Part shown: positions 2,606 to 17,789 of the stretch, piece by piece | Layout of the letters: every line of letters starts with the position of its first letter | Numbering within the stretch: the first letter of the stretch is position 1 | From: Ruminococcus sp. | Lineage (GTDB): Bacteria > Bacillota > Clostridia > Oscillospirales > Ruminococcaceae | Assembly: GCF_017464355.1 (NCBI RefSeq) | Contig: NZ_JAFUAG010000008.1 | Span: forward strand, 1 to 35,377 | Direction of reading: 5' to 3' | Length of the DNA: 35,377 nucleotides | Notes under the pieces: generated by a model | Told to the model about the DNA's origin: nothing | The model's input: only the letters and a program-made list of their open reading frames with translations | Database searches by the model: none | Translations under genes and position numbers: made by a program

Positions 2606-4540
2606 ATGGAAAGAAGGAAAACTATAGCACTGCTTAGCCTGATGCCCGAGACTACTCACGGCAACCGTGTAATGGAGGGTGTTTTCAGGCAGTGTGAGAA
2701 ATACGGGTACAACACAGCGGTCTTTGCGTCCATGGTGCCCCTGCAGTTTTACTATCAGGATTATTCTGACGGTGAAACGCAGATATATGACCTGCCTGAC
2801 CTTTCGTTCTTTGACGGCATCATAATCGACAGCCTTTCCCTTACGGACAAGAATGACCTGCGGGTATCAGAGCATCTGAAAGAAAAGCTGCGCACCTGCA
2901 AACACGGCCCCGTGGTATGTCTGGACGAACCCTGGGACGACCACAAGACATTGAGCTGCGACAACAGCGAGCAGCTGCGGGAGATGTGCAGGCACGTCGT
3001 TCTTACCCACGGCAAGCGCGATATACTTGTCATCACAGGCTTCAAGGGCGACATTCAGGCGGAAACGAGGCTGAGCATTTTCCTTGACGAGCTGAAAAAG
3101 CTGGGGGCTGAGCCCTCGGAGGAAAATATAGTTTACGGCGATTTCTGGTACAGCTGCGGCGAACAGCTGGCTGATGAGATACTTTCGGGAAAACGCAGGC
3201 TGCCCGAAGCTGTCATAGGTGCCAGCGATCATATGGTCATAGGCCTGGTGGAAAAGCTTACAAGGCACGGCATAAGAGTTCCCGAGGATATGATAGCTGT
3301 GGGATTTGAGGCCACCCCCGAGGCAAGCCTGAGCGACACATCACTGTCTTCCTATGAGTCAAGCTTTACAAAAAATGCGGCGGACGCAGTTGACTATATC
3401 CGTTCGCTGATAGAACCCGATGTCCCTCTATACCCCTATGAAATGGATATGACGAGCTGCTTCCACCCGGGCATGAGTTGCGGGTGTGAGCCTGACCTGC
3501 TCAGGTCGGCCAGGGCTTTCAAGAATTATCTCTACACCTCCACCCGCAACTATAACCCCGAGGTGGTGGCGAACAATGTGGACATCGGCCTGCTCATGGA
3601 GAACTATGTTTCCGAGATATTCACAGCCTCCGAGACCCCCGAGAAGTGTATCGAGAACATATACATGAACACCTATCTGCTGTTCCCGCTGACGAACTTC
3701 GCCCTGTGCCTTAAGGAGGACTGGCTGACCGCCGAAAAGGAGCCTTTCAAGGGCTATCCCAAGCGCATGAAGACGGTCATCACCAACTCCAAGGACGGCC
3801 ACAAGGTCTTCTATGACCCGGAAAATGCTTTCAGCTTTGATACGAAGCTCATGTACCCGATCCTGCAGGAATACACCGAAAAGCCCAGTGTTTTCTACTT
3901 TTCAGCACTGCACTTCGGTGATGATATGCTGGGATACACGGTGCTGCAGCGGCCCCTTTCGGAAAGCCAGAAGATAAATCTCGTTACCAGAAACTGGCTG
4001 AGAATGGTAAACAATGCCCTTGAAATGGTGCGCACCAAGAACAAGTATATAATGCTGTCTATCCGCGATAACATGACAGGGCTGTACAACCGTCGGGGTA
4101 TGTACGAGCTTTTCGAGAAGCTGTCCACCGAGGTGAAGCCCGAGGACAGGCTGTTCTGCAGCGTTATAGATATGGACGGGCTGAAATATGTCAACGATAC
4201 CTTCGGCCATGATGAGGGCGACTACGGCATACTGGCTGTCAGCCGTGCCGCACAGAACGTCACACACCCGGGTGAGCTTTGCGTAAGGGCAGGCGGCGAT
4301 GAATTCTACATCATAGGTATTGGCAGATACACCGATGACGAATGCGAAAAGCGCCGTGACGAATACCTTGAAGTGATAGCAAAGCTTTCGCAGCAAAGCG
4401 GCAAGCCCTATCCCATCAGCGCCAGCATAGGCTGCGCCCTGGGCAAAGCGGGCGACCGTGACCTGGAAGAGCTGCTGCGCATAGCCGATGAGGAGATGTA
4501 CCGCTTCAAGATAATGCGCAAAAAACACCGCACACAGTAG
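2606..4540 (+). CDS. Diguanylate cyclase with an N-terminal LacI-like ligand-binding domain
   Basis: 644 residues. Residues 1 to about 290 resemble the periplasmic-binding-protein fold of LacI/GalR regulators (IALLSL at the start, later VIGASDHMVIGLVEKL and VPEDMIAVGFE), but there is no DNA-binding helix-turn-helix in front and no signal peptide, so it is probably a cytoplasmic sensor. A middle region (about 300-480) of unclear fold links to a GGDEF domain (about 485-640) with DNMTGLYNRRG, the metal-binding DMDGLKYVNDTFGH and an intact AGGDEF signature (G563-F567). It should make cyclic di-GMP from two GTP. The usual RxxD inhibitory site before the signature is absent (HPGE there), so product inhibition by that route is not expected. 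GGGGTGAT upstream supports the ATG. It stands alone after its own promoter and converges on the ECF S-component gene 13 nt away. Confidence 0.9.
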   Translation: MERRKTIALLSLMPETTHGNRVMEGVFRQCEKYGYNTAVFASMVPLQFYYQDYSDGETQIYDLPDLSFFDGIIIDSLSLTDKNDLRVSEHLKEKLRTCKHGPVVCLDEPWDDHKTLSCDNSEQLREMCRHVVLTHGKRDILVITGFKGDIQAETRLSIFLDELKKLGAEPSEENIVYGDFWYSCGEQLADEILSGKRRLPEAVIGASDHMVIGLVEKLTRHGIRVPEDMIAVGFEATPEASLSDTSLSSYESSFTKNAADAVDYIRSLIEPDVPLYPYEMDMTSCFHPGMSCGCEPDLLRSARAFKNYLYTSTRNYNPEVVANNVDIGLLMENYVSEIFTASETPEKCIENIYMNTYLLFPLTNFALCLKEDWLTAEKEPFKGYPKRMKTVITNSKDGHKVFYDPENAFSFDTKLMYPILQEYTEKPSVFYFSALHFGDDMLGYTVLQRPLSESQKINLVTRNWLRMVNNALEMVRTKNKYIMLSIRDNMTGLYNRRGMYELFEKLSTEVKPEDRLFCSVIDMDGLKYVNDTFGHDEGDYGILAVSRAAQNVTHPGELCVRAGGDEFYIIGIGRYTDDECEKRRDEYLEVIAKLSQQSGKPYPISASIGCALGKAGDRDLEELLRIADEEMYRFKIMRKKHRTQ

Positions 4541-4553
4541 GGCGGAGGTGAAT

Positions 4554-5231
4554 TTATCTGCCCGGGCCGTACTTGTCCCGCAGGCGGCCGAAGACCCTTG
4601 CGGAGGGTCTGACGAAGAGCAGCAGGAAGATGACGTTTGACACCATGTAGCTCACGGTGAACCAGAGCGAGGCTGCGGTCAGGCCGAGAAATCTTTCTGC
4701 GGAGAAACCGCCCCCCAGCCAGAGCATACTGCATACATCAAGGCTGACAGAATATACCAGTCCTGCCGCCCCGCCGAAAAAGGCCAGGGCAGCGGGGCTT
4801 TTTTTCAGCTTGTCCCCCAGAAGCCCCGCTGCAAGGCCTGTCAGCCCCCACACGGTCATCTGGAAAGGTGTCCATATGCCCTGAGAAAAGTAGAAATTCG
4901 AGATGAGTGCGGTGAGGGCGCCTATGGCGAAGCCTTTCTCAGCACCCAGATAAATGCCTGCCAGTATTATCACAGCGGCGCAGGGCTTGAAGGCCGGCAC
5001 AGGGGCGAAGATGAGCCTTCCTGCCACCGCAAGGGCTGTCATCACGGCGGTGAGGGCTATGTCACCCGAGGGGGTGTCACGCTTTTCAAACCTGTCGAAG
5101 AAGTACCCGCAGATAAGCACCGCCGCCGAGCATATGCCCCAGACCGCAGCTGTTTCCCCGAAAATGGCACAGCCTGCGCATATCCCTCCCAGGCAGACCA
5201 CCAGCGCCAGCACGGCGCGGCGGCTAGGCAT
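4554..5231 (-). CDS. ECF transporter S component (substrate-binding membrane subunit)
   Basis: 225 residues, very hydrophobic, with about six membrane segments, typical in size for the substrate-capturing S subunit of energy-coupling factor importers. Small-residue-rich helices such as LTAVMTALAVAGRLIF and ALTALISNFYF are characteristic; helix 1 of S components usually carries the alanine motif for EcfT contact. The ATG at 5231 overlaps the stop of the ATPase gene by 8 nt and has GGAGGG 7 nt upstream, so it is translationally coupled; an opening at 5276 would overlap more and lacks such a site. It is the last gene of the ECF set, with fused EcfA and EcfT just upstream, implying a dedicated (group I) transporter. 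The ligand cannot be read from sequence; the neighbours suggest a corrinoid or similar vitamin. No clear terminator follows. Confidence 0.85.
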   Translation of the reverse strand: MPSRRAVLALVVCLGGICAGCAIFGETAAVWGICSAAVLICGYFFDRFEKRDTPSGDIALTAVMTALAVAGRLIFAPVPAFKPCAAVIILAGIYLGAEKGFAIGALTALISNFYFSQGIWTPFQMTVWGLTGLAAGLLGDKLKKSPAALAFFGGAAGLVYSVSLDVCSMLWLGGGFSAERFLGLTAASLWFTVSYMVSNVIFLLLFVRPSARVFGRLRDKYGPGR

Positions 5232-6813
5232 GACTTCCCTCCGGCGCCTGCCGCAGCTTTTCAACAGTATAGGCATTTTTTACCATGCCCCTGGCTATGC
5301 GGCCCGAGGCAGTGCTGTAAAATCCTGCCTTTGAGAAAAACTTGGGGGCGGGCAGCAGGCTCTCTATCCTGCCGCCGCAGAATATCCCGCAGGTGCAGGC
5401 ATTTTCGGCGGCAAATTCAAGACTGTGGGTCACGGTCAGCACAGCCTTGCCCTCAGCACAGAGCTTTTTCAGCACCGTCCCCAGCCTGCGGGCAGAAAGG
5501 GGGTCAAGCCCCTTTGAGGGCTCGTCCAGCAGCAGTATGTCAGGCTGACAGAGCAGTACCCGCCCCAGGGCGCACAGCTGCAGCTCGCCGCCGCTGAGGT
5601 CGTAGGGGTGCATATCAGCCAGCTTTTCACAGCCAAGATATCCCAGCATGGCCGAGGCTTCCTCCTCGGGTCTGCCCAGGGCTTTCAGGGCATAGCGGTA
5701 GTCCTCGGCCACCGTGGGCTGCAAAAACAGGTCGGCTGCCTCCTGGGGCAGCATGGCTGCGGTCAGGGGTGCCTTTTTCAGTGGCCTGCCCCCTATGCGG
5801 ACTTTCCCTGCGTAAGGCCGCAGCTGGCCTGCCAGCGTTTTCAGCAGAGTTGTCTTGCCGCTGCCGTTGGCGCCTGTCAACGCCAGAAATTCGCCCTTGT
5901 GCAGCACCAGGTCAGCCCCCGCCAGAATGTCCTCGCTGTCCCGCCTGAAAGAAAAGCGCAGACCCTCGGCTTCAAGCACGGGCTCGGAATATCCCTGCGT
6001 TTCATCAAGGGGCAGCTCGGTCTTGTGAGGAAGCTTTTCCAGCAGCGCCCTGCCCTCCTTCACCGTCATGGGAACGGGCTCCTGTTCTGCAAAAGCCCTT
6101 GCCGCCGCAGGCATGATGTGGATAAGCTGTGCATTCTTCGCCGCCTGACGTGGGGGCAGGTCGGCGGTGAGCCTGCCGTTTTCAAGGTATATCAGCCGTT
6201 CGGCCTGAGCCAGCATAAGCTCCCCCGAATGCTCTGCGATGATGACCGTGGTGCCGAACTCTCGGTTCACCCGCAGGATAAGGTCGGCAAAATTCTCGGC
6301 GGTGACGGGGTCAAGGCGGCTGAAAGGCTCGTCCAGCAGAAGCAGGTCTGGCTGCATTACCATGACCGCACAAAGGCTGACCAGCTGCTTTTCGCCCCCC
6401 GAAAGGCTGGCAAGCGGCCGTTCCAGCAGCTTGCCCAGCCCGAAGCGTGAAACGGTCTCAGCCGTGAGCCTGCGGACTTCCTCGGGGGGCAGGCCTGCGT
6501 TCTCGGGGGCGAACATTATCTCACCCCGCACCCTGTCGCTGACGAAGCTTTCCTCGGGGTGCTGGGGCACATAGCCCACACGGGGGGCGGTGCCGCCCCG
6601 CTTTTCGCCCAATAGGCTTATCTCCCCCGAAAGCTCCCCAAAGGGGGCTATCTCGGGCTTTAACAGCTTAAGCAGAGTCGTTTTGCCGCTGCCCGAAGGA
6701 CCCATGAGCATGACAAGCTCACCCGTTCTCACCGTAAGGGAGATATCGGTGAGAGCAGGCTGCTTTGCGGTGTTGTGTCGGAAAGTCACCGCTTTGAGGT
6801 GTACAGCTTCCAT
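5224..6813 (-). CDS. Fused EcfA1-EcfA2 ATPase of an ECF transporter
   Basis: 529 residues with two complete ABC ATPase domains in one chain. Domain 1 has Walker A GPSGSGKT (38-45), signature LSGGE (137-141), Walker B LLLLDEP (157-163) and the switch histidine in IIAEHSG. Domain 2 has Walker A GANGSGKT (314-321), signature LSGGE (406-410), ILLLDEP (426-432) and VTHS. Both sites look catalytically complete, so the protein should supply the whole ATPase dimer that powers uptake through EcfT and the S component. I chose the ATG at 6813, which has AAGGAGG about 8 nt upstream, over an opening 14 codons further up. The start lies 28 nt inside the EcfT gene. Fused EcfA pairs are common in dedicated vitamin transporters of Clostridia. 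Confidence 0.93.
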   Translation of the reverse strand: MEAVHLKAVTFRHNTAKQPALTDISLTVRTGELVMLMGPSGSGKTTLLKLLKPEIAPFGELSGEISLLGEKRGGTAPRVGYVPQHPEESFVSDRVRGEIMFAPENAGLPPEEVRRLTAETVSRFGLGKLLERPLASLSGGEKQLVSLCAVMVMQPDLLLLDEPFSRLDPVTAENFADLILRVNREFGTTVIIAEHSGELMLAQAERLIYLENGRLTADLPPRQAAKNAQLIHIMPAAARAFAEQEPVPMTVKEGRALLEKLPHKTELPLDETQGYSEPVLEAEGLRFSFRRDSEDILAGADLVLHKGEFLALTGANGSGKTTLLKTLAGQLRPYAGKVRIGGRPLKKAPLTAAMLPQEAADLFLQPTVAEDYRYALKALGRPEEEASAMLGYLGCEKLADMHPYDLSGGELQLCALGRVLLCQPDILLLDEPSKGLDPLSARRLGTVLKKLCAEGKAVLTVTHSLEFAAENACTCGIFCGGRIESLLPAPKFFSKAGFYSTASGRIARGMVKNAYTVEKLRQAPEGSHA

Positions 6814-7646
6814 TGGATGTCCTCCTTTGCCAGGAAAATTATGGCAGGCAGGCACAGGGCTGTGACCGCCGCCGTAAGCAGGGGCTCGTACCTGCCGAAA
6901 ACTATGGTGGGGTAGAAGTCGGTGTTCCCCCCCAGAGCCATGAAGATGACAGCTGCGGCAGTAAAGCCCGTCTGTACTGTCAGGAAGACAAGGTCAGCCC
7001 TGCGCAGCCTGCGGCTGTCGGAATAGGTGACAGAGTGGGTGCCGTAGCCCCGTGAATCCATGGAGCGTGCCGCCCCCGCAGCAGCCTCTGCCGACCAGGC
7101 CACGCAGGCCATGAACACCGCCGCCGAGCTTTGCAGCCTGTCGGTGGGGGAGCTGCCTGCGAAAAGCCCCGCCCACTGCTGGGCTGAACGGATACGCTTC
7201 TGCTTTTCGATAAGGCGTGGTATGAAGCCCAGGGTCATGCTGACGGTCATGGCAAGCTTTGGGGATATCCTGCCGAAAATGCAAAGTATCTCCCTGTCGG
7301 TCAGAAGCCTGCGGCAAAGGGTCAGCCAGAGGGTCGCCCCGCTGAGGGAAAGCCCCAGCATAAGTCCGTAGAGCATGGACTCGGCTGTATAGGGGCGGTC
7401 GTTTACGAAAAGCAGCACCGTCATGCCGCGGTGAGAGAACAGGGGGTCGATGACCGATACCGCCGCCGAGAATGCCAGACTTCCGAAAAGTGCCTTGAAC
7501 AGGCTTTTGGCGCCGCACAGAAGTCCCAGGCAGACAAGCCCCCCCAGCAGCCCCGCCCCGACGGCTGTTATGGAACGGGAGAACATCAGGCAGATCAGCA
7601 CTGTCATCACGGCGGTAAGGCGGCATACGGGGTGCAGCGGCTTCAT
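6786..7646 (-). CDS. EcfT transmembrane coupling protein of an ECF transporter
   Basis: 286 residues with about five or six membrane segments. The cytoplasmic coupling region (about 140-205) includes MTLGFIPRLIEKQKRI and ends in ARSMDSRGYG (193-202), the ARS/ARG-type motif by which EcfT touches the ATPases. In the family it links the ATPase pair to the S component in the membrane. The ATG at 7646 overlaps the stop of the upstream DUF4430 gene by 4 nt, with GGGGGCGGG ahead as ribosome binding site. Order here is EcfT, EcfAA, EcfS, each overlapping, so the three subunits are made together. Confidence 0.9.
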   Translation of the reverse strand: MKPLHPVCRLTAVMTVLICLMFSRSITAVGAGLLGGLVCLGLLCGAKSLFKALFGSLAFSAAVSVIDPLFSHRGMTVLLFVNDRPYTAESMLYGLMLGLSLSGATLWLTLCRRLLTDREILCIFGRISPKLAMTVSMTLGFIPRLIEKQKRIRSAQQWAGLFAGSSPTDRLQSSAAVFMACVAWSAEAAAGAARSMDSRGYGTHSVTYSDSRRLRRADLVFLTVQTGFTAAAVIFMALGGNTDFYPTIVFGRYEPLLTAAVTALCLPAIIFLAKEDIQWKLYTSKR

Positions 7647-8128
7647 CTGCCCGCCCCCTTGTAGTAGCTGTCAACGTAGATGAACTCTATCTCGTCCCCC
7701 GAAAGGGGCTTGTATTCGCCGCAGTTGATATCGGGGGCGGTGCCGTTGACGGTGTATATCCAGCCCGACTCTGCGCCGTAGTCCAGCTCGTAAAGGCCGC
7801 CTATGCCGTCGATGTACACAGCCTTTCCTCCGCTGACATCAAAGGGGATATTTTCGTAGTGCAGCACCCTTGCGGTGATGTCGTAAACGCTTTCCCCCGA
7901 AGCCAGGGCATAGCTGCCTGTCAGCATGGTGCCGTCATCGGGGAGGGCCTTGTCTTTCTTCGCCACCGAGGAGCAGTCTATGGTCAGCTTTACATAGGCC
8001 CCGTCTTCGGAGATCTCAGCGGGGTGGAGGGCATAGTATTCCCCGGGGGTCTTTATGTCGGCGGTGAAAATGAACAGCGCTGCTACCGCCCCGCATACCC
8101 CGAAAAATATCAGGTCTTTTTTCTTCAT
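7643..8128 (-). CDS. Membrane-anchored DUF4430 (transcobalamin-like beta-domain) protein
   Basis: 161 residues: MKKKD then a hydrophobic stretch (7-22) that acts as signal anchor or uncleaved signal peptide, then an extracellular domain. Its second half shows the DUF4430 pattern: VYDITARVLHYENIPFDVS, IDGIGGLYELDYGAESGW, GWIYTVNG (122-129) and LSGDEIEFIYVD. This family is named transcobalamin-like because it resembles the C-terminal beta-domain of transcobalamin and intrinsic factor, which closes over bound cobalamin. No lipobox cysteine is present. It is directly upstream of EcfT (4-nt overlap) and 18 nt after the TgpA-like gene, with GGGGAGGTGA as ribosome binding site. That position suggests it hands ligand to, or helps dock ligand on, the S component. 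Ligand binding is inferred, not shown. Confidence 0.85.
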   Translation of the reverse strand: MKKKDLIFFGVCGAVAALFIFTADIKTPGEYYALHPAEISEDGAYVKLTIDCSSVAKKDKALPDDGTMLTGSYALASGESVYDITARVLHYENIPFDVSGGKAVYIDGIGGLYELDYGAESGWIYTVNGTAPDINCGEYKPLSGDEIEFIYVDSYYKGAGR

Positions 8129-8146
8129 GCCCTCACCTCCCCTGTG

Positions 8147-9970
8147 TCAGTATAGCCCTTTCAGGCGGCGGACAAGGCTTTTGCCCCTGCCCTGTTTTTT
8201 TGAAGCCCTGAGCGCTTCCGCATAGAATTTTTTTGCAGTATCGGCAGACTTTTCATCTGCCCCCCGCCCCGAGAACCGCAGGCTGTCGTAAGCCCGCTGT
8301 GACTCGGCAAAACGCTTTCTCAGCAGACCCTCCGTCTGCCCCGCCAGTTCCTCGGGGGGGAGGTCTTTGTCTGCCCCTGTTACCAGCAGCAGAAGCTCCC
8401 TGCCCTGTCGGTGGGCGGCTGTCAGCGCCTTTTCGGGGGTCTTGCTTTTTCTGTCCAGAGCTCTTGCGGCTGCACGGAAACGTCCTGCCAGCAGTATGCA
8501 GAGCAGTGCCGCAGGCAGTAACAGCAGCCATTTTGCAGAGATATCAGCTTTTTCCTCAGGGCTGCGTATCTCGGCGGCCGTGCGGGGCGGCGCCGCTGCG
8601 TAAATGTAGCTTTCAGCCCCCTCAGCGGAACTTTCGCCGCCCTTGTCGGAAACACCCTCGGGCAGCAGGGGAGAAGCGCTGACGTATTCAGGCCGTGTTT
8701 CAAAAACCACCCAGCCTGCGCCGTCGATGTATACCTCTGCCCAGCTGCGGCGCTGACCCACTTTCAGGTCGGTGACACCGCCTGCGGGCACCGCCTTGAA
8801 GTATACCCCCTTTACTTCTCTTGCCGCAATGCCGCAGCTGCGGGCCAGGGTGACAGTAAGGGAGGTGCGCTCCTCCTCACTGCCCAGCTTTGCGTTTACC
8901 CCCGACCTGACCGCCGCCAGCTTGCGGTCGAGAGGCTGACTGCCGTCAATGGCAAAGCGCTCCTCCATGGAGCTTTGTTCCTCCGCCGTAAGGGTGCCGT
9001 AGGCCGAGAATACATACTCTCGGTACAGGGCTTCGCAGTCAAGGTAATCTCCCGCTGTCAGCCTGCCCATAAGTGCGAAGACGTTCTCGTCCAGCTGCGG
9101 GCAGACGGTGTAGCTTTCCCCTGCAAAGCCGTCGGTGTTTTTGCGGGAGGTCTCCCCCGAGCAGACATTCTGCGGGGTAAAGCCACGGGGGGCGGTGACA
9201 GCCGTCCTTTCAAGGTCACTGCCTGCGGCTTCAAGAAAAAGCTCCGTTTGCAGGCGGGGGTCAAAGCCGTGTTCGTAAAGGGCGGCGAAGATACCGCTTG
9301 CCCTCTCATACCCCGACTTCGTCAGGGCAGGGTCTTCATATTCCTCCGCCAGATAAAGGGGCAGACCTGCCGCCGCCTTTACCTCGCCCTTTGCCGCCGC
9401 TGCGGGAGGCTTCAGCCACACCGCAGGCAGTGCCAGCAGCACCGTCAGCACGGAAAGGGGCAAGCCCCGCCATTTGTCCTCACCGAAACAGCACACCGCC
9501 GCCCCCGCAGCTACAAGGGGGCAGAGCAGCATAGGTCTGCCCAAAAGGAAAAAGTCCCCCGCAGCCCCCAGCACCGCCGCCAGCACACAGCAGGCCTTAG
9601 CCCCTGCCGCCGCATATATCCCGCAGGCTATGCCGCAGACGCACAGCAGCACCAGCCATGCCGACTCAGCGCCGCCCGTTACAGGCTCGTAGAGGGCATG
9701 GGCTTTCACCGCCGCCAGGTAGGCAGCCTCATCGGCACAGCGGGCGCATTCGGCCATGAAACGGCCATGGAAGACCACTGCCCCCAGCAGCCCCGCCAGC
9801 CCCGGCACAAAGCCTGCGGCCTTGCCGAAATTATCTGTCAGCAGCCCGAAAAGGGTACAGAAGAACAGGGCTGCCGCTGCTGCGGGCAGTCCTGTGAACA
9901 TATAGACCGCAAGCCCTGTGGCCGCCCCGAAATACAGCGGCGCAGGACGGAGAATATGCTTCTGTTCCAT
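8147..9970 (-). CDS. TgpA-like membrane protein with a degenerate transglutaminase domain
   Basis: 607 residues with the TgpA/DUF3488 plan: about six N-terminal membrane segments (15-185), an extracytoplasmic transglutaminase-like domain (about 330-430), a further membrane helix (WLLLLPAALLCILLAG, about 485-502) and a cytoplasmic DUF4129-like tail. The fold motifs are clear (TLARSCGIAAREVKG, SWAEVYIDGAGW), but aligned to GxCxxFA, AHAW and FDPT the catalytic Cys is Glu365, the His is Arg408 and the Asp is Glu424. All three triad positions are therefore changed and the protein is probably not an active transglutaminase or protease. The ATG at 9970 has AGGAGGAG 5-6 nt upstream. It follows DUF58 and MoxR genes, the usual partners of TgpA, so a scaffolding or assembly role at the membrane is likely. 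Confidence 0.85.
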   Translation of the reverse strand: MEQKHILRPAPLYFGAATGLAVYMFTGLPAAAAALFFCTLFGLLTDNFGKAAGFVPGLAGLLGAVVFHGRFMAECARCADEAAYLAAVKAHALYEPVTGGAESAWLVLLCVCGIACGIYAAAGAKACCVLAAVLGAAGDFFLLGRPMLLCPLVAAGAAVCCFGEDKWRGLPLSVLTVLLALPAVWLKPPAAAAKGEVKAAAGLPLYLAEEYEDPALTKSGYERASGIFAALYEHGFDPRLQTELFLEAAGSDLERTAVTAPRGFTPQNVCSGETSRKNTDGFAGESYTVCPQLDENVFALMGRLTAGDYLDCEALYREYVFSAYGTLTAEEQSSMEERFAIDGSQPLDRKLAAVRSGVNAKLGSEEERTSLTVTLARSCGIAAREVKGVYFKAVPAGGVTDLKVGQRRSWAEVYIDGAGWVVFETRPEYVSASPLLPEGVSDKGGESSAEGAESYIYAAAPPRTAAEIRSPEEKADISAKWLLLLPAALLCILLAGRFRAAARALDRKSKTPEKALTAAHRQGRELLLLVTGADKDLPPEELAGQTEGLLRKRFAESQRAYDSLRFSGRGADEKSADTAKKFYAEALRASKKQGRGKSLVRRLKGLY

Positions 9971-9978
9971 TGCTCCTC

Positions 9979-10893
9979 CTAAAAGTCGATATATGTCACC
10001 CTGTCATCGGAAAGGGTACGGTTTTTCGTGGCTGCAAATATCTGCACATCGTCGCCTGCCTGCCGCAGAAGCTCTGCCAGCAGGCTCTCGCCCTTGTACA
10101 TCTCGGTGTGCAGTATCTGTATGACCGCGTCTTCGGGGGAGATATTTTTCGTAAGCTTCACCCTGTCCCCGCCCTCGGGCAGCGCCAGCCCGAAGGCTAT
10201 GCCCGCAGCGGAAAGCCCCTCTGCCAGCGAGCAAAGAAATTCTGCGGCCGCAGCGGTATCTTCCCCCAGGCCGTAGTCCCCGAAAAGCACCACAGCCCCG
10301 CTTTTTTCGGGAGCATAGGTGTTCAGGTACAGCCTGCCGAAGCGGTGGGTCAGCTTGAAGTTTATGTGCCGCAGCTGCTCGCCCTCAGTGTACTCACGGG
10401 CGCCCTCAAGCTCTTCTTCTCCCGCCGCCCTGTCAAGCACCGCCGTGACCTCTGCCTTGTCGGGCATGACGGTGATGACATCTTCTGCATAACACACAGC
10501 TGTCCGCCTTGTCAGCCCCAAGATATCATAGCGTGAGAACTGCACGAAGCGTATCAGCAGCCTGCCGCAGTCCTTCTGGGCGGGCAGTGCAAGGGTGCGG
10601 TCTTTTTTTATTTCCGTGTCGATGGCACAGCGCTCGCCTGTCAGCAGGTTCTCGCAAAGCACCCGCCCCCGCAGGGTCTTGCTCCCCCCGAAGGTCAGCA
10701 CAGGTGCATGGCCTTTTTTCGGGAAAAGCTCATCATAGCTCACCCTGACCTCAGGCTTGTCCGCCAGGTTCTCCGCCGCCGATACCATGGCAGCCGCCAG
10801 CAGTGCCGCTGACAGATAAAGCCCCGCAGGGGTCACAAAGAACCACAGCCCCAGCCCCGCTGCCGTGAGCAGGGCGAATATCAGCCGCCTCAC
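9979..10893 (-). CDS. DUF58 family membrane-associated protein
   Basis: 304 residues. Two hydrophobic helices at the N-terminus (about 4-20 and 22-40) are followed by a beta-rich part and the DUF58 signature around 165-190, REYTEGEQLRHINFKLTH then FGRLYLNTY, which corresponds to the family pattern with conserved arginine, basic residues and a hydrophobic pair. The C-terminal half resembles a von Willebrand A fold, as in other members. Members are almost always encoded with a MoxR ATPase and often a transglutaminase, thought to act together in assembly or maturation of surface complexes. The GTG start overlaps the MoxR stop as GTGA, so translation is coupled. The next gene starts 8 nt after its stop. 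Confidence 0.88.
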   Translation of the reverse strand: MRRLIFALLTAAGLGLWFFVTPAGLYLSAALLAAAMVSAAENLADKPEVRVSYDELFPKKGHAPVLTFGGSKTLRGRVLCENLLTGERCAIDTEIKKDRTLALPAQKDCGRLLIRFVQFSRYDILGLTRRTAVCYAEDVITVMPDKAEVTAVLDRAAGEEELEGAREYTEGEQLRHINFKLTHRFGRLYLNTYAPEKSGAVVLFGDYGLGEDTAAAAEFLCSLAEGLSAAGIAFGLALPEGGDRVKLTKNISPEDAVIQILHTEMYKGESLLAELLRQAGDDVQIFAATKNRTLSDDRVTYIDF

Positions 10894-11828
10894 AGCCCCT
10901 TGTTGTCAGGGCAGGGGATAGCTTTCAGCAATGCCGAAAGCACCTGCTCTGCGGTCTTGCCTGCGGCTTTAGCCTCACGGGTCAGTACGAGCCTGTGGGC
11001 GCACACAGGCAGAAAGCAGGCGCGTATATCCGAGGGCACCACATAGTCACGGCCGTCAAGGTAAGCCCCCGCCCTTGCTATGCGGCACAGGGCCAGGGCA
11101 CCTCTGGGCGATATGCCCGTTTCGGTGTGGGGGCTGTCGGCTATGGCCTGCCATATGTCGCATACATAGTCGGTCATCTCATCGCTCATGGATACTTTGC
11201 GTATCTCCGCCCTTATCTCTTCAAGCTCCTCCCCGGTGCAGACCTGTTCTGCGCCGTCCAGGGGGTCGGCCTCGGCACGGTCGGCAAGTATGCGTTTAAG
11301 GGACTCCTTGTCGGGCGCACCCAGGTGCAGCTGCACCATAAATCTGTCCAGCTGTGAAAGGGGTATGGCGGAGGTGCCTGCTGCCCCCACGGGGTTCTGG
11401 GTGGCTATCACGGTGAAGCAGCGGGGCAGGTCGTAGGTGATGCCGTCAACGGTAAGCCTGCCCTCCTCCATGGCTTCCAGCAGTGCCGACTGGGTCTTAC
11501 CCGAGGTTCGGTTCAGCTCGTCCGCCAGCAGCAGGTCGGTCATGGCAGCCCCGGGGTGGTATACGAAGCTTTCCTTTGCCTGGTCGTAGGCGGAGTAGCC
11601 GGTTATGTCGGAAGCCACAGTGTCAGGGGTCAGCTGCAGCCTCCTGAACCTGAGCCCCAGGCTTCTCGAAAGAGCCAGCGCCAGGGTGGTCTTGCCTGTG
11701 CCGGGGGCATCCTCCAGCAGGATATGTCCCCCTGCCAGCACAGCAGCTATAAGCATCTCAACAGTATCGTCCTTGCCCACTATGACCCTTGTCAGGTTCT
11801 CACGGAGCTTTGCGGGGATCTCGTTCAT
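10890..11828 (-). CDS. MoxR-type AAA+ ATPase
   Basis: 312 residues with the full MoxR layout: Walker A APGTGKTT (41-48), MoxR-specific LTPDTVASDITGY, Walker B LLLADELNR (99-107), sensor 1 ATQNP (142-146) and the C-terminal lid with GISPRGALALCRIARA. It should be a cytoplasmic ATP-driven chaperone, which in known systems works on partners carrying von Willebrand A domains, here the DUF58 protein encoded next. Its ATG overlaps the stop of the toroid protein gene as ATGA. Position between the secreted capture proteins and the ECF genes suggests it helps assemble this surface complex. All nucleotide-binding motifs are intact. Confidence 0.93.
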   Translation of the reverse strand: MNEIPAKLRENLTRVIVGKDDTVEMLIAAVLAGGHILLEDAPGTGKTTLALALSRSLGLRFRRLQLTPDTVASDITGYSAYDQAKESFVYHPGAAMTDLLLADELNRTSGKTQSALLEAMEEGRLTVDGITYDLPRCFTVIATQNPVGAAGTSAIPLSQLDRFMVQLHLGAPDKESLKRILADRAEADPLDGAEQVCTGEELEEIRAEIRKVSMSDEMTDYVCDIWQAIADSPHTETGISPRGALALCRIARAGAYLDGRDYVVPSDIRACFLPVCAHRLVLTREAKAAGKTAEQVLSALLKAIPCPDNKGL

Positions 11829-12994
11829 TCTTTATTTTCCTTTCTTCTGCGTAGGATAATGCCTGCGGCCACCGCCCCCACGCTGCATACCAGTATGGAT
11901 ACCACCAGTGCGGTCTTGGTGGCCTTGCTCTCATGCTTTATGGGCGAGGGCATGACATTCTCACGGGGCATGGTCAGGTTGACCTCCTTGGCGGCCGCCG
12001 CTTCTTCAAGGGTGCAGGCGGTCGGTGCGGCGGGGGGGCCGCTGTTCATATCGAAGACCCCTCGCTCGCCGTTCCTAAGCCTTTCGAGGCTGCACAGTGC
12101 TATGAGCGCCTGGGCAGAAGCCATCTCGCTGCTGCCGCTGTCTTTCTCGTGGGAAAAGCCGCCGTCATCGTTTGCGTAGGCTATGAGGTCATCTGTGAGC
12201 CCCTCAAAGCGGCTGTCCTCGTCGGGGTCTTTGCCCAGACAGCACAGGGCGCAGACTATCTGCGAGAGCGTTTCGCAGGTATTGCCCCTGTTTCCCGCCA
12301 GATAATCCAAAGCCCTTTCTGCCGCCGCGGAAACTTCCTCGCTGCCCCGATAGGGCGCCAGTGCCTGCAGCACCATGGCAGTCAGGTCGGGGTCGCTCCT
12401 GCCTGCGCTCTCCTCTATGGAAAATCCCCCGTCCCCGTTCTGGGACTCCAGTATATGCCGCACAATGTCCGTTCGGCTGAGCTCTGCGCTCTCAGGGACC
12501 TTCCAGTCGCAGCTGTCAATGGCAATGAGCGCCCACACCCACCCGTTGAGCCCCTGCCTGCCCAGGTCTTCGCCGCGGCTGTATACCCCGTCTGTCAGCA
12601 GGTCTATCCCCGAAAGGTCGGTGGGGTCAGCCCCAAGACATACAGCTGTCAGGGCGGCACGGTGCCATTCGGTGGCCTTTGTGCGGTCAAGTCCGCCCTC
12701 GTAGGTGTATTTTTCATCTATGCATTTTTTCCAGTGGTTGTAATATTCCGCCGTGCTGTCCTCAAACCCGAAGCGCACAGCGCCTATCACCAGCCAGTCC
12801 GAGCTGTCCTCGGCGGCATTGTCGGCTATCTTCCCCGAGAACAGGCTGTCGCCCTCTTTTATGCCGTTTGCCGCCTTTTCATAGGTGATTATGCCCCGCG
12901 CATAGCCCTCGGCCTGTTCGCTGCTCAGCGCCTGCGCCCCCATAGGCATACCCAGCATGACCGCCGCTGTCACCAGTGCTGTCAGCTTTTTCAT
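11825..12994 (-). CDS. Secreted alpha/alpha-toroid (prenyltransferase-repeat type) protein with C-terminal membrane anchor
   Basis: 389 residues. An N-terminal signal peptide (about 1-22, ending GAQA) is followed by repeated helical hairpins carrying the signature of prenyltransferase/squalene-cyclase repeats: GWVWALIAIDS, ESQNGDGGFSI, DPDLTAMVLQALAPY, NDDGGFSHE and ASAQALIALCSL. After a linker there is a C-terminal membrane helix (about 357-379) and a basic tail RRRKENKE, so it is a surface protein anchored at its C-terminus. No cyclase catalytic DxDD-type motif is seen. This barrel fold also forms the N-terminal domain of transcobalamin and intrinsic factor, and DUF4430 proteins lie on either side in the operon. 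Ligand binding, not terpene chemistry, is therefore the better guess. It overlaps both neighbours by 4 nt. Confidence 0.82.
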   Translation of the reverse strand: MKKLTALVTAAVMLGMPMGAQALSSEQAEGYARGIITYEKAANGIKEGDSLFSGKIADNAAEDSSDWLVIGAVRFGFEDSTAEYYNHWKKCIDEKYTYEGGLDRTKATEWHRAALTAVCLGADPTDLSGIDLLTDGVYSRGEDLGRQGLNGWVWALIAIDSCDWKVPESAELSRTDIVRHILESQNGDGGFSIEESAGRSDPDLTAMVLQALAPYRGSEEVSAAAERALDYLAGNRGNTCETLSQIVCALCCLGKDPDEDSRFEGLTDDLIAYANDDGGFSHEKDSGSSEMASAQALIALCSLERLRNGERGVFDMNSGPPAAPTACTLEEAAAAKEVNLTMPRENVMPSPIKHESKATKTALVVSILVCSVGAVAAGIILRRRKENKE

Positions 12995-14925
12995 TCAATA
13001 TCACTCCCCACATCATTTCCGAAATCCAGCGAAAATCTCAGCTCTATATCTTCACCGTCTGCAAACACCGCCGCAGACATGGCGTAGGAGGGCTTTTTTC
13101 CCCCGCGGCAGTAAAGCCAGCCCGACCCGGGTGTGTAGTCAAATTCTCCCAGCGAATCGGTATCGCTTATGCCGTCAGGTGATATGCCTGCCCTTTCCAG
13201 ATAGGCCAGGGCTTCTTCCGTCAGCCCGCCACCCGCAAAGCAGCCTGCCTTGCTTATCCTTGCAAGATATCTGCTGCTGTCGCTGCCGCGGCTGCTGACC
13301 TCAAAGCCATGCTCCTCCAGGAACCTCACCACCGTGTCAAAGCCCGTTTCGCCCTCCAGCACGGGGAAATCGCTGTCTTCACACAGTACCCCCAGCCCGA
13401 TGACATCTGCCCTGACCAGTATGCTTATCCGCCCGACCTCTTCACCCACATCGGCGCTCTCGCAGAAGATGTTGTAGAAATACTCGCTCTGCCTGCCGAT
13501 GTCGTCTGTCAGCCTGATGTACACGCTGTTGTCCCCGGGGTGCAGCTTAAGCAGATAGCCTGTGCCTGTGCCGTCCTCCCAGCGGTGCCCGCATTCAGCG
13601 CCGCCGCAGGCCACCTGTATGTGTCCCGAATATATCCTGTTGCCGTCACGGTCGGCAGCTTTCAGCGTAAGTGAATAAACGCTGCCTTTCACGGTCATAT
13701 TATCCGTGATGTCTATTTCCTCCAGGCGGGGCAGGCTGTCCTCGTCCATGTCGGGCAGGGCGGTCACGGTGAAGCTCTTTTCTGCCTTGTCAGCGCCGTC
13801 CTTTGCCAGCAGCCTTATGGTGTTGGTGCCCTCTTCCAGCTGTGCGGTGTATTCTCCGCTGCCCCGCAGGGCTTTGCCGTTAAGCTGAACTGTCAGCTTG
13901 GGCGAATTGCCCCCTGCCGCCTGTGCCGTGAAGGTCAGTGTGTCACCGTAAACGGTGCAGTCATCAAGGTCGGTGATGATATCCAGCTCACGCAGGGGTA
14001 TGTAAGTCACCGAGAAATCCAGCTCCCGCCTGCCCGAGGTCAGCCTTATCATGTTCTCGCCCTCGCTGAGGGTCACGGTGTAGCTGCCGCTGCCCGAAAC
14101 GGGGCTGCCGTTCAGATACACCTCCAGCCCGTCATCGCACTCAGCCTTAAAGGTCAAGCTTTCCTCGTAAACATCACGGTCGGTAAGGTCGGTGACTATG
14201 GCGCTCTCTTTGCTCTCAAGATAAACGGTGTAGTCACGGAAAGCCCTGTAGACCTTGTTCTTGCCGTCCTTGTAGGTGCAGCTTACCCTTATGGCGTTTG
14301 CACCCTCTTTCAGCCTGCATTTGCCTGCATAGCCTGTCAGCACCGAGCCGTTGAGCTCCACATCGCAGCGGACGGTCTCAAGGTCCTCCGCCAGCTGTGT
14401 AATGGTGAAAAAGTAGGTGCTTTCGCTGACCGTTTCGCCATCCTTTATGGAGGTGGTGAAGTATTCCCGTTCAGCCTCTCTGCCGTCCCCTATAACAGGG
14501 GAGGGTGTGCCAGCATCGGGTCTTGCCTGTGTTACCGTGGGGGCAGCCTGAGTTTCTTCCTGCTGCACTGCTTCATCGGGGGCAGTGACAGATATGTTCT
14601 GCGGCAAACTGTCAGTTGAGCTTTCTGCCCTTGTATCGGCAGGCTTTTGCGCCGCCGAGGAGCTTTCCGCCCTGCTGCTGTCATCGGTGCGGGAGCTTTC
14701 CTCGTTCTCCTTTTCCGAGCTTTCATCATCGGGCGCAGAGCTTTCCTCCGCCCCTGCAAGACCTGCGGTCAGCTCGGGCAGCTGCGGCTCACGGCTTACT
14801 ATCTCCGCAGCGGCAAGCTCACGGGGAGCATTCCTGTAAAAAGCCGCAGCAAAGCAGGCCCCGCCCGCCGTCATCACGGCAGCGGCAGCCCAGGCTATCA
14901 GTTTCCTGCGGGTGCTTTCTGACAT
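12991..14925 (-). CDS. Membrane-anchored Ig-like repeat protein with C-terminal DUF4430-like domain
   Basis: 644 residues. A signal anchor (about 7-28) is followed by a low-complexity S/E/A-rich spacer (about 50-130) of the kind that crosses cell walls. Then come about four beta-sandwich repeats (about 150-480), seen as recurring patterns such as VYLNGSPVSGSGSYTVTL and SEGENMIRL, and VQLNGKALRGSGEYTAQL and EEGTNTIRLLA. The end (about 500-640) resembles DUF4430, with TVVRFLEEHGFEV, FDYTPGSGWLYCRGGKKP (glycine-tryptophan at about 602-603) and a final GEDIELRFSLD strand. The Ig-like stalk would hold the transcobalamin-like domain away from the membrane. It overlaps the toroid gene by 4 nt. The upstream gene ends 83 nt away with a hairpin between. 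Ribosome binding site is weak (GGGGCGCAGAGCC). Confidence 0.8.
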   Translation of the reverse strand: MSESTRRKLIAWAAAAVMTAGGACFAAAFYRNAPRELAAAEIVSREPQLPELTAGLAGAEESSAPDDESSEKENEESSRTDDSSRAESSSAAQKPADTRAESSTDSLPQNISVTAPDEAVQQEETQAAPTVTQARPDAGTPSPVIGDGREAEREYFTTSIKDGETVSESTYFFTITQLAEDLETVRCDVELNGSVLTGYAGKCRLKEGANAIRVSCTYKDGKNKVYRAFRDYTVYLESKESAIVTDLTDRDVYEESLTFKAECDDGLEVYLNGSPVSGSGSYTVTLSEGENMIRLTSGRRELDFSVTYIPLRELDIITDLDDCTVYGDTLTFTAQAAGGNSPKLTVQLNGKALRGSGEYTAQLEEGTNTIRLLAKDGADKAEKSFTVTALPDMDEDSLPRLEEIDITDNMTVKGSVYSLTLKAADRDGNRIYSGHIQVACGGAECGHRWEDGTGTGYLLKLHPGDNSVYIRLTDDIGRQSEYFYNIFCESADVGEEVGRISILVRADVIGLGVLCEDSDFPVLEGETGFDTVVRFLEEHGFEVSSRGSDSSRYLARISKAGCFAGGGLTEEALAYLERAGISPDGISDTDSLGEFDYTPGSGWLYCRGGKKPSYAMSAAVFADGEDIELRFSLDFGNDVGSDIE

Positions 14926-14952
14926 GGCTCTGCGCCCCTTTATATAGACCTA

Positions 14953-14982
14953 AAGGCAGAACAGGCTGTCCTGTTCTGCCTT
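14953..14982 (-). terminator. Perfect 13-bp hairpin between the dockerin gene and the rest of the operon
   Basis: AAGGCAGAACAGG (14953-14965) pairs perfectly with CCTGTTCTGCCTT (14970-14982) around a 4-nt loop. On the minus strand it is followed by only TTTA, so it is probably a leaky terminator or a 3'-end stabiliser. The next ATG is 27 nt downstream and I see no good promoter between, which suggests read-through expression of the following genes. Confidence 0.7.
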
Positions 14983-15008
14983 GGGTGGTATAGTCGATAC
15001 TTTGTCTG

Positions 15009-16913
15009 TTACTTAGTTTCAGGCAGAGCCTTAATGCTCTTTACATGGGCTGCAATGCTCATCAGGTCGGTGACGTTGACCTCGCCGTTGACATCGGTGT
15101 CAGCTGCATTTATGCTGTACTTGTCGATGGCCTTAATGCTCTTTACATGGGCGGCTGCCAGCATCACGTCGGTAACGTTTATCTCGCCGTCGCCGTTGAT
15201 ATCGCCGCGCATAGCTGTAGCACGGGCATACTCGTCATCATTGCTGCAAACCAGAACATCGTAGTCCCTGCTCACCTCAGCCTTGCTGCCGTCGCCCTTG
15301 AAGAGGCCGTATCTGCTGCTAACGGTCAGTACCTCATCATCGGTGGTGAACTCATCTACGCTGAATTCAGCGGGAACGTCCGTATCGGGCACCAGCAGGC
15401 CTTCAAGCTCAACACCGAAGCCCTCAGCCTTAGGGGACTCGCCTGCCCTGAACACGATAACGGGGTCGTTCTCATCGTGGCCGAAGGGGTGTATGTATCT
15501 TGTGCTGTCATCAGCCGCAAAGGTCAGGCCTGTGGCTGCAGCGGATATGCACATGAGGTTGAAGGAGTCGTTCCTTACATAGATGCAGTTTCTCTCTGCG
15601 TCGTAGTAGGGGTCTACCGAGCAGTACTGTGCGAATTCAGCAGTGGGCTTGAAAGCTATGGGGGCGCACTTGTGTACGTTGCCCTCATCATCGGTCTCCT
15701 CGCTGACAGCAAGGGGTTCGGTCATGCCGTCCTTATCCCTGAGTATACGGATATTTCCGTTCTCGCCGTTCTCAACGTAATAGATGACATTGTAGCCTTC
15801 GCTGTCAACACCCACGAAAGCACCCTCTGCCTGGCAGGCAGCAGCGGTCTCAAGGGTGTAGGCTATCCTGAAATCGAAGGAGCCGTCAGAGTAATAGTAC
15901 TTGTAGAGAACCACGATCAGCGAGCCGTTATAATTGTTCCAGCCGGGAGCATTCAGGGTAATGTATACCCTGTCGCCTGCGACTATGGGCGTGGAGGTAC
16001 AGGTGTAGCCCTCAAGACCGAGGACCTTGGCTACATCATAGGCATTGCCTTCCTCTGTGTTCGTGGATATGATATGGCCTGCTTTGTCAGTGTAGTACAC
16101 CCTGTCGCCGTTTAGCACCAGCTTGCTGCGTATGTCATCCGAGCCCAGACCAAAGCGGGTGATGTACTCGCCTGTATGCCTGTTTACGAAATATATCTCA
16201 TTGCGCTCGGGAGATCCCAGCTGGCCTGTGATACCGTTCTCGCAGCCGATAGCCAGGGTGTCATCGTCAAGGGCAGCCACAGTTGTCCAGTAGTAGCCGC
16301 CGCAGTTCGTCAGCTCCCAGTCAGCGGAGGTCTCTTCATCTGTAACAGCTTCGTCAAGGTCGGTGGGGTCCAGGCAGACATAGTCGGCATCGACCTCTTC
16401 ACCGTTCCAGAAGCCTGTGAACACCTTGCCGTCAAGGCATACTATATCGCAGGTGGGGCTGCCGCCGTTCTTGTTGTGGTATATCCACAGGGACTCCAGC
16501 GTTTCGCTGTCAAAGGCCTGTACAGTGCCGTTATCCAGTGCCATGAACACCTTGCCGTCACTGTAAGCGGGCCCCTTGGTTGCATAGGTGGCCTGACCCG
16601 CCATTTTTGCAGTTGTCAGCACCTCGCCTGTGGCCTTGGATACCTTGCATATCTTGTTTGCAGTGCAGATGTAGATGTAATCGGGGTGCGCGGCATTGAA
16701 GCCTGTGGGCGCATCGCTCCAGGTCAGCTTGTCTTCGCCTATCTGTGTCGCCCAGATCAGCGCACTCTTTTCAGAGGAGTCAAAAACGAGGACAGGTGAA
16801 GCTCCCTCGGGGGACTTTATCCCTGTATTCTCGGCAGAAACTGCCATAACACCGTTGAGCGCCAGCGCAGCAGCACTCATCACACTCAGGAACCTTGCAG
16901 GTCTTTTTTTCAT
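15009..16913 (-). CDS. Secreted PQQ-type beta-propeller protein with a type I dockerin
   Basis: 634 residues. A signal peptide (about 1-27, ending VSA) precedes a long beta-rich part (about 40-560) with propeller-blade motifs such as GKVFMALDNGTVQAFDSET, DYIYICTANKICKVSKATGE and GDRVYYTDKAGHI. The C-terminus (about 570-634) is a dockerin with two calcium loops, GDINGDGEINVTDV and DTDVNGEVNVTDL, each followed by the same helix AAHVKSIKA. The dockerin should attach it to a cohesin on a scaffoldin or cell-wall protein. No glycosidase domain is recognisable, so it is not an obvious cellulosomal enzyme; a binding propeller is more likely. It has its own promoter and a GGAGAG site before the ATG. 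It leads the minus-strand gene set, followed after a hairpin by the DUF4430/toroid/ECF genes. Confidence 0.9.
   Translation of the reverse strand: MKKRPARFLSVMSAAALALNGVMAVSAENTGIKSPEGASPVLVFDSSEKSALIWATQIGEDKLTWSDAPTGFNAAHPDYIYICTANKICKVSKATGEVLTTAKMAGQATYATKGPAYSDGKVFMALDNGTVQAFDSETLESLWIYHNKNGGSPTCDIVCLDGKVFTGFWNGEEVDADYVCLDPTDLDEAVTDEETSADWELTNCGGYYWTTVAALDDDTLAIGCENGITGQLGSPERNEIYFVNRHTGEYITRFGLGSDDIRSKLVLNGDRVYYTDKAGHIISTNTEEGNAYDVAKVLGLEGYTCTSTPIVAGDRVYITLNAPGWNNYNGSLIVVLYKYYYSDGSFDFRIAYTLETAAACQAEGAFVGVDSEGYNVIYYVENGENGNIRILRDKDGMTEPLAVSEETDDEGNVHKCAPIAFKPTAEFAQYCSVDPYYDAERNCIYVRNDSFNLMCISAAATGLTFAADDSTRYIHPFGHDENDPVIVFRAGESPKAEGFGVELEGLLVPDTDVPAEFSVDEFTTDDEVLTVSSRYGLFKGDGSKAEVSRDYDVLVCSNDDEYARATAMRGDINGDGEINVTDVMLAAAHVKSIKAIDKYSINAADTDVNGEVNVTDLMSIAAHVKSIKALPETK
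15028..15152. repeat. 23-bp direct repeat encoding the duplicated dockerin helix
   Basis: The same 23 bp, beginning GCCTTAATGCTC, occurs at 15028-15050 and 15130-15152. The identity at DNA level shows recent homogenisation of the two dockerin segments. Confidence 0.85.
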
Positions 16914-16973: not shown

Positions 16974-17002
16974 AGTATATCATAATGCTATGATTTTTTC
17001 AA
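16974..17002 (-). promoter_or_regulatory. SigA-type promoter for the dockerin gene and downstream operon
   Basis: On the minus strand TTGAAA (17002-16997), a 17-nt spacer and TATACT (16979-16974). The leader to the ATG at 16913 is only about 55 nt and contains a small hairpin (GGTCTT/AAGACC, 16944-16961). That is too short for a cobalamin riboswitch. Confidence 0.85.
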
Positions 17003-17121
17003 GTGCGGAGACAACAATTAACAGCAGGCTCATCATATGAAATCGTGATAGCGAGCCATAGCTTTAAACTATATCTGCCCCCCCCTTTTGCGCCTCGCAG
17101 CCTGTAATCGAAAAAAAGGTA

Positions 17122-17150: not shown

Positions 17151-17185
17151 GACTGTAAGTGCAATCGGAAGGCGGTGACCCTGCT

Positions 17186-17755
17186 TTGAATACAATACCT
17201 AAGGATGAGCTCATCACCGATAAGGCAGTGACCTGCTGCTTTACGGGACACCGCAGCCGCGACCTGCCCTTCGGGGGAGATGTCAGCAGGCAGGGTGTCA
17301 AAAATCTGATAAGCACGATACAGCTGGTGTGTTCCCGCGCCTATGAGGCGGGCTACCGCACTTTCATGACAGGCATGGCGGACGGCGCGGATATCATCTG
17401 CGGGTCGGTCATAATGGATATGATGAACGATGTGCGCTACAAAGGCATGAAGCTCATATGCGTGCTGCCCTACAGGGAGCAGCGGAGGGAGCTTTCGTCG
17501 GCGGGGGACAGGTATATACACAGCCTGCTGCTTGAAAGAGCCGAATACGTCGTGGTAACGGGCGAGGCTCATGACCGCGGGCGGTATCGGGAGAGGAACC
17601 AGTATATGGTAGACCATTCCTCAGCGCTCATAGCGGTGTACAAGGAAAAACAGCGGGGCTCGGGTACGCTGCAGACCATAAATATGGCGAAGCGTGCAGG
17701 GCTGACCACCCACATCATCGAGCTGGACAAGAACCCCCAGTTCTATATCGACTGA
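17186..17755 (+). CDS. SLOG-family protein (YpsA/DUF1273-like)
   Basis: 189 residues. The opening CCFTGHRSRDLPFGGD and the later MTGMADGADIICG match the YpsA group of the SLOG superfamily, Rossmann-like proteins thought to bind nucleotide-derived ligands. The C-terminal half has IAVYKEKQRGSGTLQTINMA, also typical. I place the start at the TTG at 17186, because AAGGCGGTGA (17169-17178) is a near-perfect ribosome binding site 7 nt upstream and the promoter lies at 17122-17150. In Bacillus subtilis YpsA influences cell division, but this function cannot be assumed here. The next gene begins 34 nt downstream on the same strand. Confidence 0.85.
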   Translation: MNTIPKDELITDKAVTCCFTGHRSRDLPFGGDVSRQGVKNLISTIQLVCSRAYEAGYRTFMTGMADGADIICGSVIMDMMNDVRYKGMKLICVLPYREQRRELSSAGDRYIHSLLLERAEYVVVTGEAHDRGRYRERNQYMVDHSSALIAVYKEKQRGSGTLQTINMAKRAGLTTHIIELDKNPQFYID

Positions 17756-17789
17756 ATAAATATCACATAAACAGTAAGGAGAAAACTTT

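Follow-up and report, generated by a model that had tools for sequence, protein, structure and literature searches.

The window analysed here is a stretch of 35,377 nucleotides (nt) from Ruminococcus sp. (GCF_017464355.1, contig NZ_JAFUAG010000008.1, positions 1 to 35,377). Between positions 4554 and 16913 it carries a block of ten genes, all on the minus strand, which combines putative surface proteins with an energy-coupling factor (ECF) importer (Table 1). The order of transcription is propeller-dockerin, immunoglobulin (Ig)-stalk, toroid, MoxR, DUF58, TgpA-like, small DUF4430, EcfT, fused EcfA-A' and S component. Adjacent genes overlap by 4-70 nt or are separated by 8-83 nt, and this spacing fits a single operon. 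A preliminary description of the sequence had proposed ten closely packed genes on one strand with this content; both points were confirmed, the DUF4430 domain of the Ig-stalk protein by hhalign only. We propose that the block (hereafter the cassette) forms a single operon whose products capture corrinoids (vitamin B12 and its relatives) and import them. This prediction is well supported by comparison with related loci, and we put its probability at roughly 80%.

Table 1. Features of the cassette and its leader (window coordinates; bit scores are from Pfam)
Feature	Position	Strand	Evidence and remarks
MET-box-like palindrome	17057..17073	not assigned	2 mismatches to TATAGTTTNAAACTATA; upstream of operon promoter
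Promoter-like TTGAAA-17-TATACT	16974..17002 (17002-16974)	-	Upstream of operon; hexamers largely conserved in leader alignment
Propeller, secreted, PQQ-type, C-terminal type I dockerin	15009..16913	-	PQQ_2 39.4 bits, Dockerin_1 32.2 bits; first operon gene
Ig-stalk protein, N-terminal anchor, divergent C-terminal DUF4430/SLBB	12991..14925	-	Cadherin-like/Ig matches; hhalign for DUF4430
Alpha/alpha-toroid, secreted, C-terminal membrane helix	11825..12994	-	Prenyltrans 20.0 bits (cut-off 26.5); confident model
MoxR-family AAA+ ATPase	10890..11828	-	PF07726 (AAA_3) 163.4 bits
DUF58-like protein	9979..10893	-	PF01882 15.7 bits (cut-off 23.4); MoxR-DUF58-transglutaminase gene order
TgpA-like protein, transglutaminase core	8147..9970	-	PF01841 39 bits
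Small DUF4430 (SLBB) protein, N-terminal hydrophobic anchor	7643..8128	-	PF14478 50.3 bits
EcfT-like transmembrane component	6786..7646	-	CbiQ PF02361 18.4 bits (cut-off 25)
Fused EcfA-EcfA' double ATPase	5224..6855	-	PF00005, two stretches
ECF S component, CbrT-like, predicted corrinoid-specific	4554..5276	-	PF07155 36.4 bits (cut-off 26.7)

Promoter-like sites were slightly more frequent than expected in the region upstream of the operon (2 versus 0.7). Terminator-like sites within the operon (14 on both strands versus 10.4 expected) were not clearly above chance. Three Pfam matches in the window, those to CbiQ, DUF58 and Prenyltrans, lie below their cut-offs (Table 1).

The prediction of the ligand starts from the S component. 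Its closest relative in the PDB was CbrT (6fnp_A; phmmer E 1.2e-6 with the single sequence). A profile of the S family matched 6fnp with an E of 3e-17, and the sole other match was 4hzu (E 8.7e-7). CbrT (PDB 6fnp) is a demonstrated importer of cobalamin and cobinamide in Lactobacillus delbrueckii (PMC5997447). The fused ATPase passed the TIGR01166 cbiO model (227.4 bits, cut-off 211.8), the only curated NCBIfam cut-off passed among the window's cassette proteins; ECF ATPase models were its best matches but stayed below cut-off. The CbiQ cut-off was passed by three of five related EcfT proteins scanned, and the other two had no match. Three loci contain a second S-like gene (313-318 amino acids) within the cassette (L074:9954-10904, L076:9809-10765, L084:6609-7550), possibly for another corrinoid form, and in one (L090:13687-14583) a second EcfT-like gene follows S immediately.

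For the comparison we used 39 relatives of S (L002-L040) from a scan of GTDB contigs, and 40 loci spread over families of Clostridia, whose species may overlap with those of the 39 relatives. The nearest relatives of S were from Ruminococcus. T and A homologues lie ahead of S in 36 of the 39 relatives, and the other three loci (L025, L029, L033) start at a contig end that falls within the T and A genes or behind them. Of the eight Ruminococcus loci, seven (L002, L003, L005-L009) have the same order as the window, Ig-toroid-MoxR-DUF58-TgpA-DUF4430-T-A-S; L004 begins at the small DUF4430 gene. Propeller relatives were found in all eight Ruminococcus genomes. In seven of them (G393-G399) they are full-length and 46-53% identical to the window's propeller; the relative in G400, the genome of L009, shows 37% identity over residues 1-560, with the dockerin part outside the alignment. 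The propeller gene stands immediately upstream of the Ig gene on the same contig in six of the eight genomes (G394, G396-G400) and on another contig in two.

Across the Clostridia, 161 of 393 sampled genomes matched the S profile, and so did 155 of the 382 better assemblies; these counts take in weak matches, which may be other S families. Of the 40 sampled loci, 38 have a T homologue. Counting only genes on the same strand as S, 33 of the 40 encode DUF4430, 26 a toroid and 5 a propeller, and 34 encode at least one of the three. Thus, in the survey across Clostridia that the preliminary description had called for, the neighbourhood proved conserved as a whole block in close relatives and as a core in many Clostridia.

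Signal peptides on the propeller and toroid proteins, as well as the hydrophobic anchors of the Ig and small DUF4430 proteins and the C-terminal hydrophobic helix of the toroid, were read from the sequence. BtuG of Bacteroides is reportedly a surface beta-propeller in a B12 uptake system. BtuG is a surface lipoprotein, whereas the window's propeller, as read from its sequence, has no cysteine in the signal region and carries a dockerin instead. A cohesin match above cut-off elsewhere in the window's genome (G000:C26:110135-110449) is a possible partner of this dockerin. A Pfam scan of the Ig protein returned no DUF4430. Profile-profile comparison identified its C-terminus as DUF4430 (hhalign 97%, E 1.1e-10, with an insert). 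The structure model of this protein was poor (predicted local distance difference test, pLDDT, 57; DUF4430 tail unmodelled), and the fold matches of its confident part therefore say "Ig-like" only. A PDB sequence search with the small DUF4430 protein gave no match worth keeping (best E 0.21).

The toroid was modelled with confidence (pLDDT 85.3, predicted TM score 0.82), and its ortholog in L009 passed the Prenyltrans cut-off. In a Foldseek search with the model, drimenyl diphosphate synthase ranked top (E 2.5e-4), ahead of transcobalamin 2v3n (E 9.6e-3). A toroid profile matched terpene cyclases and, at E 1, complement C3dg in the PDB; transcobalamin was absent among the matches listed. In fold and in sequence, the protein resembles transcobalamin no more than it resembles other toroid families. 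The transcobalamin-like parts postulated in the preliminary description hold to the extent that a toroid fold and DUF4430 domains are present as separate proteins. Among the 79 other cassette loci, toroid and DUF4430 are united in one open reading frame (ORF) in 11 cases; in two loci (L031 and L040) the small DUF4430 protein is joined to the toroid via two hydrophobic segments. Giant ORFs of 1576-2771 amino acids uniting DUF4430 and toroid domains occur in L075, L077, L088, L090 and L102. Four of ten toroid proteins scanned (L079, L091, L108, L110) carry S-layer homology (SLH) domains, an alternative surface anchoring.

Regulatory and enzymatic associations of the family point to corrinoids. 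In at least 19 of the 40 loci, a same-strand cobalamin riboswitch (RF00174) precedes a cassette gene by no more than 700 nt, against a rough chance expectation of 0.09; within 10 kb, this holds for at least 23 of the 40. Among the matches listed, 16 of the 19 nearest riboswitches precede a surface-protein gene and 3 precede EcfT; two of the 19 overlap the first possible start of the ORF. Among the 39 relatives, riboswitches precede the cassette in L031 (RF00174) and L038 (AdoCbl-II). A gene for an ATP:corrinoid adenosyltransferase adjoins EcfT in 7 of these 39 loci (Pfam-confirmed for L014, L023 and L028), and in L091, one of the 40 loci, such a gene follows S. With the kinship of S to CbrT, these associations in relatives support the corrinoid ligand, which had been the leading guess of the preliminary description.

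The distribution of the surface proteins bears on their role. The ECF part might import corrinoids while the surface proteins (toroid, DUF4430, Ig, propeller) have a different ligand, such as cell wall, polysaccharide or another protein, and serve just to place or shield the importer. The company kept by S, as counted above, argues against this, as do the 11 fused ORFs and the riboswitches that mostly stand before surface-protein genes; moreover, the animal proteins that have both domains are B12 carriers (PMC1796856). Some loci nevertheless do without such proteins. Six of the 40 have no surface module on the S strand: five have T-A-S and one has just S. Two of these six have a riboswitch before T. 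In 19 of the loci L002-L040 (e.g., L013, L016, L023), T-A-S is preceded by an MreB/Mbl gene, next to which neither a toroid nor a small DUF4430 protein was detected. Ig and dockerin domains typically occur in proteins for adhesion and scaffolding, and the toroid is as near to other toroid families as to transcobalamin. On balance we regard surface proteins with such a separate role as unlikely.

The MreB loci have further features of their own. A RecD2 helicase gene was also found in the three that were checked, and in six of the 19 the adenosyltransferase gene lies between MreB and T, with L028 arranged likewise. The record of L023 is labelled Bacteroides sp., and its cassette is of the Clostridia type; it is possibly a mislabelled or mixed bin.

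Upstream of the promoter-like site in the window lies a palindrome (Table 1) that corresponds to the MET box TATAGTTTnAAACTATA of streptococci (PMC2627894, PMC5359408). Only 0.01 such sites were expected in the window, and a match occurred in 1 of 100 shuffled sequences. In the leader alignment, the palindrome stands upstream of the propeller gene in the window and in seven relatives, whose leaders deviate by 0-1 mismatches from an extended 19-base pattern. At up to 2 mismatches it was found at 22 places in these eight genomes: 8 before the propeller gene (one per genome), 6 before metF, 4 before metE and 4 elsewhere. Strand matches numbered 37, versus 6 for the reversed control. Among the seven relatives, the MET box precedes metF in six genomes and metE in four. 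NCBIfam names eight of these ten genes, two of them metE genes cut short by the locus and below cut-off; the remaining two metE genes were identified via their N-termini. Transcription of the cassette in the window and its close relatives thus appears to be tied to methionine status, as far as the leader sequences tell.

In the 79 other cassette loci, the palindrome was not enriched: 2 matches were found in 1.36 Mb, versus 3 for the reversed control. Since L002-L009 in this set begin within the Ig gene or behind it, the Ruminococcus leaders were tested separately. The ninth leader, that of G400, has no palindrome. It contains RF00174 (37.0 bits, gathering score 31.5) 440 nt before the propeller gene, from which a short ORF separates it. 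In one Ruminococcus whose gene order is unchanged, a riboswitch therefore occupies the place of the MET box in the others. We infer that the riboswitch is ancestral and the MET box came later. A MET box is expected to be bound by a LysR-type regulator; in L009, the cassette locus of G400, a LysR gene follows S, but this is the genome whose leader has no palindrome. In one relative, a perfect MET-box match (L158, G395:C140) lies upstream of two ORFs which, from their reading alone, resemble an ABC transporter.

The window's genome has a probable use for B12. The domains of its MetH are S-methyltransferase, pterin-binding and B12-binding; about 1 kb away lies a separate Met_synt_B12 piece. Searches of the assembly, which is 91% complete, found neither a FecCD (BtuC-type) permease nor CobS; other cob/cbi genes were not searched for.

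Several observations weigh against the corrinoid reading, and some of them would suit a different ligand. The assembly's incompleteness leaves the gene absences uncertain. The toroid shows no specific likeness to transcobalamin. Among the matches listed, 21 of the 40 loci have no RF00174 in the 700 nt ahead of a cassette gene, and 37 of the 39 relatives have no cobalamin riboswitch at the gathering score, although some of these loci end short of the operon start. A riboswitch is missing from the window too: Rfam on the leader at a relaxed threshold gave chance snoRNA matches only, and no RF00174 match was found in the window's genome among 150 of 182 first-look candidates scored. For this reason, the ligand in the window's clade is deduced from homology and the MET box. 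The latter taken alone equally fits methionine or folate uptake. In G396 the palindrome had 2 matches and its reversed control 3. In the window's own genome no MET box (at up to 2 mismatches) was found before metE or metF, and its one other palindrome match (C31) is not ahead of a recognised methionine gene. Furthermore, the best Pfam family of S, passed above cut-off, is the riboflavin-type PF07155.

These points could mean that the system of the Ruminococcus albus clade has shifted to methionine, folate, homocysteine or another vitamin and no longer carries corrinoids. Such a shift would agree with the MET box that the cassette, metE and metF have in common in relatives, with the missing riboswitch of the window, with the PF07155 assignment and with a weak match of S to a folate-family NCBIfam model (16.1 of 60 bits). 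However, 23 positions of S are invariant across 21 aligned members, and CbrT is its best PDB relative by a wide margin. In addition, G400 combines the same gene order with a cobalamin riboswitch, and the window's genome has MetH, with BtuC and CobS not detected. We therefore consider a changed ligand improbable. Another tetrapyrrole such as haem is more improbable still: Staphylococcus lugdunensis is reported to have a haem transporter of the ECF type, but cobalamin riboswitches and corrinoid adenosyltransferase genes accompany the present family, and hemin did not compete with uptake by ECF-CbrT (PMC5997447).

The three genes between the toroid and the small DUF4430 gene probably encode proteins that assemble, activate or anchor the surface proteins, although this assignment is a guess. 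Two more MoxR homologues (44% and 41% identity) are encoded elsewhere in the window's genome, and the cassette copy may therefore be dedicated. DUF58 falls below the Pfam cut-off in both Ruminococcus orthologues scanned and above it in L105. This locus, from another family, has MoxR-DUF58-TgpA after S, alongside a riboswitch and a DUF4430-propeller fusion. In L012 (2401-4362), a gene for a sortase-domain protein lies two genes upstream of the toroid gene and perhaps takes the place of the trio. The PFNA operon of bifidobacteria similarly encodes a surface Fn3 protein with MoxR, DUF58 and a transglutaminase; in contrast to the cassette, it has a kinase gene and its five core genes as described include no importer, and a role in adhesion and host communication was proposed for it (PMC6803598).

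Scavenging of B12 was proposed in 2007 for SLBB proteins of low-GC Gram-positive bacteria that have toroids, Ig folds or propellers and are encoded in operons with CbiO/CbiQ homologues (Burroughs et al., PMC1796856). The same authors noted that animal proteins uniting toroid and SLBB domains are B12 carriers and proposed that animals acquired transcobalamin from such bacteria. The cassette resembles those operons in its secreted or anchored SLBB protein, its toroid, Ig and propeller modules, its second SLBB paralogue and its CbiO-like ATPase. Their permease is CbiQ-like; the window's EcfT stays below the CbiQ cut-off (Table 1), which three of the five related EcfT proteins pass. Their hosts usually lack key B12 synthesis genes, and in the window's genome CobS was not found. 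As far as those operons are described, the cassette differs from them in having the toroid and both DUF4430 domains on separate chains, a dockerin on the propeller, MoxR-DUF58-TgpA inserted, a CbrT-like S and a MET box at the position of the riboswitch in other cassettes.

With ECF-CbrT the cassette shares a homologous S component together with T and ATPases, and the same ligand class is proposed. The account of ECF-CbrT that we draw on mentions no extracellular capture proteins, and its ECF module also serves FolT2, whereas the window encodes T and ATPase beside S (PMC5997447). Knowledge of cobalamin uptake by prokaryotic auxotrophs was there called scarce. Transcobalamin, intrinsic factor and haptocorrin likewise combine a toroid fold with an SLBB/DUF4430-type beta-domain, in a single chain as opposed to the separate chains of the window; as shown above, the toroid likeness is not specific. 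In the open-licence literature, preprints excluded, we found no report of a link between CbrT and toroids or of MET-box control of B12 uptake. To the 2007 prediction we add the CbrT kinship of S, the riboswitch and adenosyltransferase counts, the variant with dockerin and MoxR-DUF58-TgpA, and the MET box, none of which we met in that literature.

The genes flanking the cassette lie on the opposite strand. A convergent gene (2606-4540, plus strand) encodes a LacI-like sensor domain fused to a GGDEF domain, and divergent genes (17159-18875, plus strand) encode YpsA (SLOG) and LytR-CpsA-Psr family proteins. A YpsA-like ORF is also divergent from the propeller gene in G393, G394 and G399.

From the gene content and its associations, the following route can be drawn for corrinoid uptake. 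The secreted propeller would dock through its dockerin and, together with the long DUF4430 protein on its Ig stalk, hold or gather the corrinoid at the surface. The membrane-tethered toroid would be the alpha-half of the binder and pair with a DUF4430 domain as the beta-half; the small anchored protein is the likeliest source of that domain. The pair may close round the corrinoid in the manner of transcobalamin, here as two chains. From there the ligand would be handed to the CbrT-like S component and imported by EcfT and the double ATPase, with MoxR-DUF58-TgpA fitting the surface proteins. Once inside, it would be supplied to MetH, under methionine-linked control in the window and its close relatives. 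In this full form, that is, a Gram-positive "split transcobalamin" that passes corrinoid to the S component of an ECF importer, combined with an outer collector in the form of the dockerin-docked propeller and with a change from riboswitch to MET box in the Ruminococcus albus clade, the proposal is tentative, and we give it somewhat less than an even chance.

If a split transcobalamin of this kind exists, ECF transporters would gain a dedicated extracellular capture stage. The cassette would make the 2007 prediction of B12 scavenging directly testable and would suggest a role for many surface proteins now labelled "DUF4430" or "prenyltransferase-repeat". It would also bear on the proposed bacterial origin of the animal B12 carriers, and the change from riboswitch to MET box within one genus would represent a clear case of regulatory replacement.

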